This document shows positions 3,189-30,706 of a stretch of DNA of 30,821 bases, piece after piece. The first letter of the stretch is position 1, and each line of letters begins with the position of its first letter. Origin of the DNA: a virus. The stretch lies in the IMG/VR virus record IMGVR_UViG_3300048930_001096, positions 1-30,821 of that record, one strand, 5' to 3'. Position numbers and translations under genes: made by a program. The notes below the pieces were generated by a model. That model saw only the letters and a program-made list of their open reading frames with translations, was not told the DNA's origin and made no database searches.

Positions 3189-4307
3189 TCACTTTCGTTT
3201 CCCCTTGTTTTCCCCGAGGGTGTCTTTCCGGGTGGTGATCAAATCAGACAAACCGGGCACGTCGACTACGTCTTCGAGACCCCGCAAGTCCTCATGATCC
3301 ATGTTAACATAAATGCGACCTTGAACGTCCAATGATGCATCTGCGAACTTCTCTTTTTGCATGTCCGTATGATTTAGAGACTTGTTCGAATACTTCTCAA
3401 AGGTGGCCCTGAAATCATGCCAGGTGATGCCCTCAAGGCCTGCCCTCTGCAAACACTTAAACCATGAGGTCTTAAGTCCTGACACGTCGCCGTGCCTACG
3501 CCAGTCGTTTCGATTCGGGAAAACCCACATCTTGAGTTTGCCCTTTTTTTCGAGTTCGTCCCGATGTGCTTGAAGAACATTTGCAACCGTTTGGTTGATC
3601 GGAAGAGAGCGGTCTCTCCCTTTCTTGTTAAAATCACGTGCGATCACGATATAACGCTCTGAAAGGTTCACCCGGTCCCAGCTGAGCGTCATGATCTCTT
3701 TTCGTCTGAGCCCGTTATAGAGGGCAAGTGACAAGAACACCAAAAGGCCGCCCTTAGAGTTCTCAAAGATCTTCATCAGCTCATGCTGCTTTATGATTCG
3801 TCTCTTGCGCCGCTGGTGGTGAGGAATTTCAGTAATGTCAGGCACGCCCAGAATGTAGCCCTTAGATTTGGACCACTTTAAGAATCCAGACATGACTTTT
3901 CTGTGGTTGGCCAAATCGCTAACCGCTGCCCGGTCGCAATACTGTGCCCAAAGAAGCGGGGTAATTTGCGAAAGTCGTCTCTTCTCAAAAAACCGCAAAA
4001 GGTGCTTTTCGAAAATGTAGACAATCTCGTTGTAGGTCCCCTCTCGAATCTTTTTCTTCTTTAAGAGCTTGCCGTCTCGCTGCTTCTGTTTTTCAAGTTT
4101 ATATTGAACGTAAAGGTCGCCAACCCTTGTTCTTGTTGCAATGGATCCGGCAGCATCAATTTCTAAAAGCAGAAGCTTTTTTCGCTCTAAAGCCTCTGCC
4201 CACACATTGGTTTTGAGGCTTTTCTCAATCTTACCTCGCTTGAAATAGTAAACGCCTGTTCCTGGATGCCGCTTAATATTCGCATCTGAGGTATGATCGT
4301 ATTTCAC
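3189..4307 (-). CDS. int: Tyrosine-recombinase integrase
   Basis: The 372-residue protein has the usual phage integrase plan. An arm-binding N-terminal domain (about 1-55) is followed by a core-binding SAM-like domain (about 60-160) and a catalytic domain (170-345). Catalytic residues seen are Arg201 (GLRRKE), a Lys at 228-229 in the beta-hairpin, His297 and Arg300 (HDFR), and nucleophile Tyr333 (RIYVNMD). The usual LGH before the tyrosine is FAD (321-323), so the third His/Trp is missing. It promotes integration at, and with Xis excision from, a tRNA-Arg site. The gene ends beside attP and its last codons contain the right arm repeat. The excisionase-like gene ends 4 bases upstream of its start. 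Confidence 0.92.
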   Translation of the reverse strand: MKYDHTSDANIKRHPGTGVYYFKRGKIEKSLKTNVWAEALERKKLLLLEIDAAGSIATRTRVGDLYVQYKLEKQKQRDGKLLKKKKIREGTYNEIVYIFEKHLLRFFEKRRLSQITPLLWAQYCDRAAVSDLANHRKVMSGFLKWSKSKGYILGVPDITEIPHHQRRKRRIIKQHELMKIFENSKGGLLVFLSLALYNGLRRKEIMTLSWDRVNLSERYIVIARDFNKKGRDRSLPINQTVANVLQAHRDELEKKGKLKMWVFPNRNDWRRHGDVSGLKTSWFKCLQRAGLEGITWHDFRATFEKYSNKSLNHTDMQKEKFADASLDVQGRIYVNMDHEDLRGLEDVVDVPGLSDLITTRKDTLGENKGKRK

Positions 4308-14166: not shown

Positions 14167-14281
14167 CCTTAACCTTCTCTTTTCGCTCGGCTTCTTCAGC
14201 CTTCTCGATGATCGCCCGAATCAAACCCAAAACCTCTGGCGCGTTAAAAATGAGCACTTTGATGACTGCGAGCCAGCTCAT
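14090..14281 (-). CDS. Small membrane protein of the lysis cassette
   Basis: This 63-residue protein has an N-terminal membrane segment (WLAVIKVLIFNAPEVLGLIRAI) followed by a charged helix (EKAEEAERKEKVKDDF). Membrane anchor plus helix fits a short i-spanin or an antiholin. It overlaps the holin-like gene upstream (ATGA) and the lipoprotein gene downstream. The assignment is from topology and position only. Confidence 0.6.
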   Translation of the reverse strand: MSWLAVIKVLIFNAPEVLGLIRAIIEKAEEAERKEKVKDDFRAIEQAFKNKDSDALRRIFESK

Positions 14282-14520
14282 TTTTTTTGCGGAAGTTTAA
14301 CCGAGGTTAGATAGTCGAGTACAAAGCACAAGTATTTATAGGCCTTTGATTGCTCGACAGCCGTCAACATTTCGTCATCTTTCTTTGTTTCCGTAGCACC
14401 CACATACGACTTAAGAAGCGCAAAAAGAGGCTTATTTATAGCTCTAAGAACTCCAATCACGCTAAATATTGCAACGAGTGCCGGATACTTCGTTGCCAGC
14501 ATTACAATTAGTTCTTCCAT
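14278..14520 (-). CDS. Holin-like membrane protein (80 aa)
   Basis: This 80-residue protein has one or two hydrophobic helices in the first half (ELIVMLATKYPALVAIFSVIGVL, and PLFALLKSYVGA more weakly) and a charged C-terminal part. Small size, membrane segments and place at the head of the run membrane protein - lipoprotein - endolysin make it the best holin candidate. Holins form the membrane holes that time lysis. No specific family is recognised. Confidence 0.55.
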   Translation of the reverse strand: MEELIVMLATKYPALVAIFSVIGVLRAINKPLFALLKSYVGATETKKDDEMLTAVEQSKAYKYLCFVLDYLTSVKLPQKK

Positions 14521-17163: not shown

Positions 17164-18917
17164 GTTGCAAGCACCCTAGCGCCATCTGTATCAAACGCTT
17201 CGTTGATCAGGTCGACGATTCTAAGTCCACTCTCTCTGGAATCTAAGACGTCGCCCTGAATGTTTACTTGAACGCGAGCTTGCCTTTCCTCTAGCTGATC
17301 TGTAGTGCCCTGAGAGCCTGAGGCGTCGGCACTAACACCACCACCAGGAACACCTGATCCAGGCTGGCCAGCCGATACAGCCGCACCGCCTGCGCCAGAG
17401 CCAGCGATTGACTTCATGAGCGCGCCAAAAGCCACAAGCGCCACACCAGCCGCTACCGCCGCAGCGCCCGCAGTAAATGGGTTTGAAACCAGAGCTTCTA
17501 GGCCAAGACCTGTGGTGATAAAGAATGTTCCAAGCTGAATAGCGATGTCGCCAATAACGCCAAGGAGAGCATTTCCGATTGCCTTAAACGCGTTCTGCCC
17601 CTGAGCAATTGCCGTGACGGCTTGCTGGACCGTGGTTGCAATCCCTTGACCAATTGAGCGCCCAAGGTCGAACACTTCTTTTTTTGCCTTCTTTAAGCCT
17701 TCCTCTACACCGGATCCAATCTTATTTCCCATCTCTTGAGAGATTGCACCGGCCTGCTCCGCAGTAGTTCTAAATCCCTCGATGAACTCAGCCGACTTAG
17801 TCGCAAAATCAAAATTGAAAATATCATCCAGCGAAGCCCTCGTTTGCGCTGCCATGTCAGTAAACGTGGCGCCAGTGGTTTCGGAGAGCGCATTTAAGTT
17901 CTGCGCAAGCTCACTGTTTGGTGCAAAGATGTTCACAATCCCAGATGTCGCATTGATGATTCCAGCAACAAGGCCTTGTATCGCGGTCCTGATACCGTTG
18001 AATACAATTTCAAGACCGTTGTAGACCATCTCGATTGGTGCCACGACGAAAGTGTTTACAGCGTCTGCAAACTTGATCAGCTCAATTATCAGGGCACCAA
18101 CAATGTCCGTTTTGCCCACTTCAGAAATCGAGCCCGATAGGCGCATAAAAATATCAGCTAACTGCTTAACCAAAGCCACGACAACAGGGCTCTGAGTGAC
18201 AAAGCCACCAATTGACTCTTGAAATGAGTTGAAACTGTTGCGCAATTGAGAGAGGGCACCGTTGAATGTATTTGTCTCAGCAGCTGCAAAACCTTTAAAC
18301 TTCTCAGCCACCAGGTCTATCGCGGCGCCAGCCCTTAACTGAGCTTCGGTGTACTGTTGAAGCTCAGGAATTCGCCTTGCCAGCTGACCAGACGTACCAC
18401 TTAGAGTTGTGCCAAGCTGTTGCAAAGCGGCTTCCGGCCCCTTGCCTGTCGCAGCCCCAAGATCGATTGCAGCTTTAGTAAGCTTAATCGCTTCTTCATT
18501 GGTTTTTGTCATGTTCCTGGCAAGAGCAGCTAGTGATAGAGCCGCGTCGTCTTCAATTGTCGTTGTTCGCTGAATCTCATTCGCCATGTCGACGAACTGC
18601 TGAGAGGCTTCCTTTGAATATGTACCCGCTAGACGAAGAGAAGTGTTAAGGCGATTGAGCGCAACCTCGCCCTCGGCGGCCGCATCAACTGCGTCCCCTA
18701 GAAAGTTTTTAACTGCTCTAAGGGCCGCAAAGCCCGCAACCGTTGCGCCGACAGCTAGAGCTATGCCATTTAAACCCTTTTTTACGCCCGTTTCTAAGCC
18801 GTCGCCAAGCTGTTCGCCAGCCTTTTGGGCCTTAGATTCCATGCGACGAAGGCCCTCGACAAACTTGACCTCGTCCGGCGAGACCTCAATCGTTATCTTG
18901 TTGTCTTCGTCTGCCAT
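17160..18917 (-). CDS. Tail tape measure protein (585 aa)
   Basis: The protein sets tail length. 585 residues suggest a short siphovirus tail, roughly 85-90 nm by the usual 1.5 angstrom per residue. It opens with an acidic-helical region (ITIEVSPDEVKFVEGLRRME), has long helices (VALNRLNTSLRLAG, QFVDMANEIQRTTTI and LAALARNMTKTNEEA), and ends with hydrophobic stretches (residues about 440-505, GLEALVSNPFTAGAAAVAAG) and a Gly-rich tail. Position just after the tail chaperone genes is diagnostic. Confidence 0.9.
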   Translation of the reverse strand: MADEDNKITIEVSPDEVKFVEGLRRMESKAQKAGEQLGDGLETGVKKGLNGIALAVGATVAGFAALRAVKNFLGDAVDAAAEGEVALNRLNTSLRLAGTYSKEASQQFVDMANEIQRTTTIEDDAALSLAALARNMTKTNEEAIKLTKAAIDLGAATGKGPEAALQQLGTTLSGTSGQLARRIPELQQYTEAQLRAGAAIDLVAEKFKGFAAAETNTFNGALSQLRNSFNSFQESIGGFVTQSPVVVALVKQLADIFMRLSGSISEVGKTDIVGALIIELIKFADAVNTFVVAPIEMVYNGLEIVFNGIRTAIQGLVAGIINATSGIVNIFAPNSELAQNLNALSETTGATFTDMAAQTRASLDDIFNFDFATKSAEFIEGFRTTAEQAGAISQEMGNKIGSGVEEGLKKAKKEVFDLGRSIGQGIATTVQQAVTAIAQGQNAFKAIGNALLGVIGDIAIQLGTFFITTGLGLEALVSNPFTAGAAAVAAGVALVAFGALMKSIAGSGAGGAAVSAGQPGSGVPGGGVSADASGSQGTTDQLEERQARVQVNIQGDVLDSRESGLRIVDLINEAFDTDGARVLAT

Positions 18918-18918
18918 G

Positions 18919-19463
18919 TTACCTGCCGAGTTGTGCCATCAATTGCTTCAGGTGAGCCGGGTCCATGTATTGCTTTTTCGGGAACGCTGCTTTTTTAAGC
19001 CTCGATTCCGTTTTTCTCGCCGAATCTTTATTCATGTGCGGCACGCTGGTGATCTCCATTTGTAAGAGAGCCTCTCTTGCCTCAATCACCGTCATTGCCC
19101 GCCAGTACATCTCGGCGTGTCTCGCATCCATCATTCTGACTTCGTTGTGCGAGAAACCGTAGAAGCGAACCAGGGAAGCTCGCCTAATCCACTGGTCGCT
19201 TAACTCTTTTTTCCAATTTCGCCCATCAAGCCCTCAACAAGCTTGTTCACATGAGCGAATTCCATCTTATCCAAAGTCGCCTCAGGAATACCGAGCCCGA
19301 TAAGCATATTTCGTCGAGCCCTAAGCATTCCCTTTAGGTCGTCCCCAGCGCTCGCGACCTCTTCTTGCATCGCGAGCACCTGTCCCTCGGTTGGCATCGT
19401 GATCTCTACGATTTCACCGTAAATCTTCAATTCAACCTTTGTGCGCTCAAACTCTAACTTCAT
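18919..19463 (-). CDS. Tail assembly chaperone fusion (G-GT) made by -1 frameshift, about 181 aa
   Basis: The first frame (19463 to 19200) ends GEIGKKS-stop. At A AAA AAG (19212 down to 19206) a -1 slip enters a frame that is open without a stop to 18919. The frame continues ELSDQWIRRASLVRFYGFSH, then MMDARHAEMYWRAMTVIEAR, and ends HLKQLMAQLGR. The fusion is 86 residues from the first frame plus 95 from the second. Tape measure starts 2 bases after its stop. This is the conserved tail-chaperone arrangement of long-tailed phages. A separate start at ATG 19134 has no need to be used. Confidence 0.85.
19200..19463 (-). CDS. Tail assembly chaperone, short form (G-like, 87 aa)
   Basis: This is the zero-frame product: MKLEFERTKVELKIYGEIVE, a helical middle (EEVASAGDDLKGMLRARRNML) and the end VEGLMGEIGKKS. 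It lies between the major tail protein and the tape measure, where tail chaperones are always encoded. It would coat the tape measure during tail tube assembly, with the long frameshift form recruiting the tube protein. Start ATG follows the major tail stop by 4 bases. Confidence 0.85.
   Translation of the reverse strand: MKLEFERTKVELKIYGEIVEITMPTEGQVLAMQEEVASAGDDLKGMLRARRNMLIGLGIPEATLDKMEFAHVNKLVEGLMGEIGKKS
19206..19212 (-). promoter_or_regulatory. Programmed -1 ribosomal frameshift site (A AAA AAG)
   Basis: Read on the minus strand, the codons GGA AAA AAG AGT TAA contain the heptamer A AAA AAG in the correct phase, the same slippery sequence as E. coli dnaX. It lies 1 codon before the zero-frame stop, and the -1 frame is open for the next 95 codons. 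It joins the two tail chaperone frames. Confidence 0.88.
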
Positions 19464-29627: not shown

Positions 29628-29999
29628 ATGGCGGCTGCTTCACTTGATATATTTATCGAACAAGGTGCTACATTCTTTCGACGCCTGACCATAAAGGATG
29701 AGAACGATCAACCCGTTGACCTAACGGGCAGAACTTTTCGCGGAAAGATAAAGCGCTCAATTGGTGGGGCTGAGCTCGCCTCATTTACCTTCGATATCCT
29801 CAACCAAACCACCGATCCTGGAAAAATCACCATGGCTCTTACGCCAACTCAGACGGCAGCCCTACCAGTTAAGCGCGGCACAGACGCTATTCGAACAACC
29901 GCAGAATACATTTACGATGTTGAGATGGTGTATGGCACTGGCGACGTTGATCGCATCCTTCAGGGAAAAGCGACAGTTTCGGGTGAAGCCACGACATGA
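29628..29999 (+). CDS. Small virion/fibre-linked protein (123 aa)
   Basis: The ATG at 29628 has GGAG 4 bases before it, so it is preferred over ATG 29616. The protein has a beta-rich pattern (LDIFIEQGATFFRRLTIKDE, VDLTGRTFRGKIKRSIGGAE) and a Thr-rich C-terminus. The segment (DIFIEQGATFFRRLTIKDEN...LTGRTFRGKIK) is common in short phage structural proteins preceding fibres. It overlaps the collagen-like gene (ATGA). Likely part of a side-fibre attachment module. Confidence 0.65.
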   Translation: MAAASLDIFIEQGATFFRRLTIKDENDQPVDLTGRTFRGKIKRSIGGAELASFTFDILNQTTDPGKITMALTPTQTAALPVKRGTDAIRTTAEYIYDVEMVYGTGDVDRILQGKATVSGEATT

Positions 30000-30706
30000 G
30001 CAATTACGACGTTCTTGTTCAAGATGGAACAAGTACCAACGTCGAAGTTACGGCAGGACAGAACTTTTCGGCAACCGTTGAATCAGATCAAGAATCAATC
30101 GTCGTTCAAATTCTTCCCGAGCAGTCCTTCACGGCAGTGGTCGAGCAGCAAAGCGATATCTCTTTAACGGTTGAGCCTGACCAAGAGATTTTGACTGTTG
30201 TCGTAGAAAATCAAGCTGCCTATAGCGTAGAGGTCTCGCAAGAAGAAGACTTCTTCACGATTGAGGTGGGATCTGTGCCAGGCCCACCAGGGCCAACAGG
30301 ACCTCAAGGACCGATTGGCCCACAAGGCCCTCAAGGGGATCCAGGCGAGCTAGAATACCTTATATCTAGGCGCCTTGCCGGTGAAACCATCTCTGCGCTT
30401 AAATGTCTAAGAGTGAGTAACCAGAAATATTTTGTCGCACGCTCAGACTTAACCTTTGAGAGCGCACAGGTTGCAGCGATTGCAAGAAACGCTGGCGCAG
30501 TTGATGCCGAAATCGAAGGCATCTCTCAAGGCGACCTTGCCGATCCGGCATTTACCTTCACTGAGGGATCTCAGCTCTATCTCTCGGCCACTGGATCTAT
30601 AACAGACGTGGCACCCACTTCGGGCTTTCGCGTAAGAATCGGAAAAGCCTTAGGTGTTGGATTAATTCAAATATCGATAACGGAACCCATAACCTTGGAG
30701 ATTTAA
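29996..30706 (+). CDS. Collagen-like phage fibre protein with decapeptide repeats (236 aa)
   Basis: Residues 21-90 consist of seven 10-residue beta-type units (GQNFSATVES, PEQSFTAVVE, QQSDISLTVE and others). Residues 96-116 are seven Gly-X-Y collagen triplets (GPPGPTGPQG and on). Residues 120-236 form a globular C-terminal domain (ISRRLAGETISALKCLRVSN, DVAPTSGFRVRIGKALGVGL) also seen in other fibre proteins. A trimeric fibre with a collagen stem is expected. It lies in a plus-strand fibre cluster separate from the minus-strand tail operon. Confidence 0.82.
   Translation: MSNYDVLVQDGTSTNVEVTAGQNFSATVESDQESIVVQILPEQSFTAVVEQQSDISLTVEPDQEILTVVVENQAAYSVEVSQEEDFFTIEVGSVPGPPGPTGPQGPIGPQGPQGDPGELEYLISRRLAGETISALKCLRVSNQKYFVARSDLTFESAQVAAIARNAGAVDAEIEGISQGDLADPAFTFTEGSQLYLSATGSITDVAPTSGFRVRIGKALGVGLIQISITEPITLEI

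Follow-up and report, generated by a model that had tools for sequence, protein, structure and literature searches.

A conserved slippery heptamer very probably joins two overlapping tail chaperone frames by −1 frameshifting in an environmental phage

Two small open reading frames (ORFs), here called G and T, overlap just ahead of a tape measure gene in IMG/VR virus record IMGVR_UViG_3300048930_001096, and T lies in the −1 frame relative to G. Is T a gene of its own, or is it reached by ribosomes that change frame at a slippery heptamer close to the end of G? We analyzed positions 1 to 30,821 of the record (hereafter, the window, 30,821 nucleotides [nt] in length), in which the G/T region is on the minus strand. 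Our answer, read from the sequence and held with high confidence, is that programmed −1 ribosomal frameshifting joins the two overlapping tail chaperone frames (Table 1).

TABLE 1 Positions in the window of the features that make up the G/T locus and its surroundings
Feature	Position	Strand	Basis or remarks
Slippery heptamer A AAA AAG	19212-19206	-	In frame with G and a single codon short of its stop
G, putative zero-frame tail assembly chaperone ORF, 87 aa	19463-19200	-	Sequence, modelled fold, gene position
T, −1 frame extension from slip site to TAA	19212-18919	-	97 codons, including two slip codons
Predicted bulged hairpin	19199-19149	-	6-nt spacer after heptamer; putative stimulator, depends on length folded
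Tape measure protein gene, 585 aa	18917-17160	-	Below-cut-off Pfam matches to TMP_2 (E 1.7e-5) and TMP_3 (E 5e-4)
Probable tail tube (major tail) protein gene, 297 aa	20361-19468	-	Position, relatives' matches, four-sequence alignment
Conserved gene after tape measure, 257 aa	17163-16390	-	Anchor for finding relatives

Read on the minus strand, G ends in GGC GAA ATT GGA AAA AAG AGT TAA, which confirms the in-phase heptamer that a preliminary description of this DNA had placed one codon before the zero-frame stop; the single separating codon is AGT, and the TAA occupies positions 19202 to 19200. The −1 frame is closed upstream by a TGA (19236 to 19234), is open from 19233, and continues from the heptamer to a TAA at 18921 to 18919, again as described. 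Over the 34 nt that the two frames share, A AAA AAG is the only in-phase heptamer of the form X XXY YYZ. The predicted fusion combines 86 residues of G with 95 of T across the junction GKK-ELSDQW, and the resulting 181 amino acids (aa) agree with the length of about 181 residues proposed earlier.

The genes on this strand follow the order tail-tube-like gene, G, T, and tape measure, with the tape-measure ATG at 18917 directly after the TAA of T. PHROG tape measure families are matched by the tape-measure genes of two of three relatives. Likewise, two of three relatives of the tail tube protein match PHROG 2175, an Ig-domain protein (E values of 3e-9 and 9e-13), and one weakly matches a major tail protein family. 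Elsewhere in the window, a minus-strand protein (3189 to 4307) resembles a tyrosine integrase by eye, which, if true, would make the phage temperate, and a predicted plus-strand protein (29996 to 30706) contains a short stretch of collagen-like GPP/GPQ repeats.

Within the window, the string AAAAAAG is not enriched (14 seen versus 13.9 expected). Strict heptamers, defined as A AAA AA[AGC] or G GGA AA[AGC] (the A6 or G3A3 kind), occur in phase 12 times in the 9257 codons of the 43 listed ORFs, and three of them are no more than two codons from a stop. Shuffling the codons of G yielded a heptamer in the overlap with a P of 0.03 for the strict kind and of 0.08 for any X XXY YYZ. By the evidence of the window alone, the site is suggestive and could be luck.

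Heptamers at other ORF ends of the minus strand have readings of their own. At 14281 to 14287, A AAA AAA adjoins the stop of a small ORF (14520 to 14278), with 65 open codons in the −1 frame; an ordinary coupled start is the simpler reading, since the next ORF (14281 to 14090) has its own ATG there. At 1907 to 1913, a single codon separates G GGA AAG from the stop of ORF 2917-1901, and the −1 frame extends for 198 codons; this string may simply belong to the Shine-Dalgarno region that serves the next ORF, whose ATG is at 1904.

Direct searches of phage records and virus contigs returned no near relatives of G, T, the capsid, tail tube, or tape measure proteins, or the terminase, and most proteins of the window phage are without a near relative in the collections searched. 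Distant capsid relatives, from Streptomyces, Bacillus, and gut phages, were not used in the comparison. A genome scan named no host; its one domain match, a weak one, was in a Verrucomicrobia bin. A 756-aa tail protein (13338 to 11068) was matched by three contigs over almost its full length, at 32 to 42% identity, and alignments of this protein and of the 257-aa gene gathered 47 nonredundant contigs besides the window, some of them partial matches. Scoring proceeded from the 257-aa anchor to the long run before it, then to a frame ending at the start of that run, and then to an overlapping frame one base ahead. The search required a −1 overlap, so the phase was selected by the search; the heptamer was not.

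Among the 48 nonredundant contigs (window included), 35 were scored and 13 were not: L020 has no anchor gene in the stretch, 11 have no long run before the anchor, and in L065 the run starts at the contig edge. Loci whose match is confined to one short domain of the 756-aa protein (L011-L018 and L025) were left out of scoring. The overlapping pair of small ORFs stands just before the tape measure gene in 35 of the 36 contigs with a scored tape-measure run, the other being at a contig edge. A looser rescan covered 16 loci, comprising the 13 unscored ones, L009, L010, and the Marinomonas phage L019; seven of them (L062, L063, L064, L073, L009, L010, and L019) yielded a plausible pair in which an A6 heptamer is present. 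No such pair was recovered in L020 or in eight others (L055, L057, L059, L061, L065, L066, L067, and L071); a T profile search located T elsewhere in the L020 contig and detected none in those eight. In L020, which thereby became a 36th contig with a heptamer, G ends in AGT AAA AAA AAA TAG, the heptamer is A AAA AAA, and the T frame is open.

The 25-row alignments of G and T omit some of the 35 contigs, namely L052 and those whose G and T look unlike the window's (L037, L046, L054, L056, L058, L060, and L068-L070). Near copies (L052 of L042, and L069-L070 of L068) are counted among the 35 and not among the 32 used for RNA folding. In L037, L046, and L054, T carries EFW-type motifs and the anchor gene is held in common, which looks like a swap of the chaperone pair in which the slippery heptamer was kept.

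An in-phase X XXY YYZ heptamer lies inside the G/T overlap in all 35 scorable metagenomic virus contigs (window included), compared with 2.99 expected from codon shuffling, and the strict kind is present in 32 of the 35, compared with 0.94 expected when codons are shuffled within each G. As a control, 367 other genes from the same loci were scanned over their last 13 codons, where a heptamer of the strict kind occurs twice and one of any kind 18 times. The preliminary description had named conservation in relatives as a check on the frameshift, and every scorable relative keeps a heptamer. When the A6 or G3A3 site closest to the stop is counted in each, 17 contigs use A AAA AAG, 8 use A AAA AAA, 3 use A AAA AAC, and 3 use A AAA AAT; the remainder are G GGA AAG (2 contigs), G GGA AAC (1 contig), and G GGA AAA (1 contig). 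Identity between relatives and the window is 12 to 32% for G and 18 to 45% for T, and the locus thus offers a tested example of a slip site that outlasts the sequence similarity of the proteins joined by it.

A cultured phage has a similar arrangement. Marinomonas phage P12026 (JQ867100) contains an in-phase A AAA AAG (L019:8073) in the overlap with a −1 frame that ends before a tape-measure-like gene. Its record annotates just a short separate CDS at that junction (L019:8178-8312), and the arrangement suggests a G/GT fusion that has probably been overlooked.

The G of the window matched no family in PHROGs or Pfam. Among the 25 aligned G members, three match Pfam Phage_TAC_7 (best E value of 3.8e-4, below the cut-off) and three match PHROG 166, "tail protein" (best E value of 5.3e-6). 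A profile comparison of G with P2 gpE was not significant, and a PDB sequence search with the G profile returned nothing usable. The G model (pLDDT of 92) has as its nearest solved folds 3fgx, 2ob9, 5ir0, and 3klu, with Z scores of 7.1, 5.8, 5.6, and 5.0, respectively, and the next row at 3.5. The second of these is the HK97 tail assembly chaperone (root mean square deviation of 3.9 over 80 residues), and 3fgx and YqbN (3klu) are, we presume, relatives of tail assembly chaperones. Among solved structures, tail assembly chaperones appear nearest to the modelled fold of G; the Z scores are middling and the Foldseek E values weak (0.095 and 0.22, and about 0.1 to 0.35 among the top neighbors). 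The chaperone assignment is carried by gene position and the slip site. The preliminary description had taken the pair for tail chaperones of the G-GT type, a reading with which gene order, the below-cut-off Pfam match of the tape measure, and the modelled fold of G are in keeping. The third-best neighbor, 5ir0, is an uncharacterized Vibrio cholerae protein, ORF19 on a PICI-like element, and may itself have a tail-chaperone-like fold.

T belongs to a conserved family (25 aligned rows) with near-invariant K2, F17, and Y18. The T of the window was recognized by neither PHROGs nor Pfam. Its model has a pLDDT of 89, with helix 1 spanning residues 6 to 18, and nothing stood out in a comparison with solved structures, which is not in itself evidence of a new fold. 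In the window, the T frame has its first ATG, GTG, or TTG at codon 27, downstream of all three near-invariant residues and of helix 1; the frame is accordingly without a usable start before its conserved block. By our reading of the alignment, 15 of the 25 T members have no start codon before the FY pair, and 10 have one, in varied places. Moreover, a −1 frame TAA or TGA directly adjoins the slip site in 12 of the 35 contigs (L024, L026-L029, L031-L033, L036, L039, L048, and L054). In these contigs, the only ways into the T frame are the slip site and a start codon farther downstream, and slipping anywhere upstream would be dead. The abutting stops are in part a by-product of the base that precedes the A run.

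These results bear on what the heptamer is for. If it were a chance A-rich end of G, without meaning, one might point to the P values of the window alone and to the two other in-phase strict heptamers there that also adjoin a stop; this reading is refuted by conservation, with heptamers in 35 of 35 contigs versus about 3 expected while the proteins are only 12 to 45% identical to those of the window, and we assign it virtually no probability. Conservation therefore makes decisive a case that the window alone left suggestive. T might instead be a separate gene with its own start, at ATG 19134 or a rarer start codon, with no fusion made. The tandem ATG ATG at 19134 to 19129 would yield a T of 71 aa, and some start codon does precede the FY pair in 10 of the 25 aligned relatives; initiation at 19134, however, would remove helix 1 and the near-invariant F17 and Y18, start positions in the T frame vary from contig to contig, and a separate start leaves the heptamers of all 35 contigs unexplained. 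We regard an independently initiated T as highly improbable.

A further alternative moves the slip from the ribosome to RNA polymerase, which would stutter on the A run and produce a share of mRNAs already in the T frame. Runs of 8 or 9 A are present at the junction in 14 of the 35 contigs (e.g., L026, L028, and L038), and transcriptional realignment is associated, in PMC3711429, with runs of more than 7 A. The run in the window is only six A, below that range, making polymerase slippage unlikely at this junction; in addition, A AAA AAG is the heptamer of 17 of the 35 contigs, and in 4 others the site is G GGA AAN, where there are just 3 or 4 A, a spectrum that fits tRNA slipping and not polymerase stutter. 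As the general explanation, transcriptional slippage is very unlikely. The contigs with 8 or 9 A could use either process, and a mixed mode, in which ribosomes slip at A AAA AAG, A AAA AAC, and G GGA AAN and the lineages with 8 or 9 A have moved to polymerase slippage, has a small but appreciable chance of being correct. If so, translation would determine the ratio of G to GT in some members, and transcription would determine it in the rest.

Programmed ribosomal frameshifting, the reading that we prefer, would operate as follows. Most ribosomes would read G and terminate at its TAA, producing the 87-aa protein. A minority, with tRNA-Lys on AAA and AAG, would re-pair one base back within A AAA AAG, on AAA AAA, remain in the −1 frame, and produce the 181-aa GT fusion, with the predicted hairpin that begins six bases downstream probably raising the slip rate. 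By analogy with lambda, G would coat the tape measure protein and the T part would recruit the tail tube protein, and for this reason the ratio of G to GT would matter for tail assembly. From the site, its phase, its conservation, the lack of an early T start, and the chaperone-like G model, we infer that slipping occurs, at some rate, along with the role of the hairpin and the binding partners.

The evidence for the hairpin as a likely stimulator is moderate. Its predicted energy is −21.7 kcal/mol when the 60 nt after the heptamer are folded, and its spacer falls within the 5 to 9 nt given as usual for −1 frameshift signals in PMC7618472. With dinucleotide shuffles as the reference, folding 57 nt gave a z of −2.4 and folding 81 nt a z of −1.0; synonymous-codon shuffles gave P values of 0.143, 0.010, 0.003, 0.002, 0.019, and 0.073 for 40, 50, 57, 60, 70, and 80 nt, respectively. 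Across 32 nonredundant contigs, stability after the slip site exceeds that of control stretches from the same contigs (mean z of −1.48 versus −0.54; P = 0.002), and among 21 offsets tested, that following the slip site has the lowest mean (−1.17). RNA structure after the slip site is common in these contigs and not universal: z is below −2 in 9 of the 32, and many relatives show no structure. A Shine-Dalgarno-like stimulator upstream was looked for and is not general, the nearest GAGG in the window being 19 nt away.

At the DNA level, the locus has the features of a G/GT system, as judged from a pair of ORFs before the tape measure gene, a −1 T frame with no start that would cover its conserved part, and a conserved in-phase heptamer. 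The frameshift of lambda G/GT is described in PMC5009743, which cites Levin 1993 and Xu 2004 and 2013 as original papers, as widely conserved in long-tailed phages despite low sequence similarity. As in lambda, two small overlapping frames precede the tape measure gene, T is in the −1 frame, and the heptamer is near the end of G. The lambda heptamer, however, is G GGA AAG (G GGA AAN is used by 4 of the 35 relatives) as opposed to A AAA AAG in the window, and lambda G is about 140 aa, whereas the G of the window is 87 aa with its heptamer one codon from the stop; no sequence similarity was seen between the lambda and window pairs. The HK97 record also annotates a −1 frameshift product, and the HK97 chaperone is the second-best solved neighbor of the G model; a small gene separates the HK97 pair from its tape measure gene, which in the window follows immediately, and the two pairs have no sequence match. 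In P2, a −1 frameshift fusion beside the tape measure gene is likewise annotated (gpE and gpE+E', of the Phage_TAC_7 family), but the G of the window has no Phage_TAC_7 match of its own, and only the three below-cut-off relatives do.

The heptamer A AAA AAG, followed in the window by a predicted hairpin, is also that of Escherichia coli dnaX, where a hairpin likewise lies downstream, as outlined in PMC5009743 and PMC3711429. Unlike dnaX, the window has no Shine-Dalgarno-like element close upstream, and its frameshift product would be an extension rather than a truncation. In E. coli, according to PMC5009743, A_AAA_AAG is far likelier to shift than either A_AAA_AAC or A_AAA_AAA. The GeneTack study (PMC3711429) reports a frequency of about 7% measured for a phage tail assembly chaperone cluster, and the PRFect work (PMC10885494) drew on 2476 phage genes that carry a frameshift annotation, with tail assembly chaperones making up 2397 of them. 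The case in the window, as far as its sequence indicates, is very probably the G/GT programmed −1 frameshift already known from lambda, HK97, and P2. It leaves the understanding of tail assembly unchanged, extends the known frameshift to a little-described group of environmental phages, and has the practical use of showing which ORFs to annotate as one fusion.
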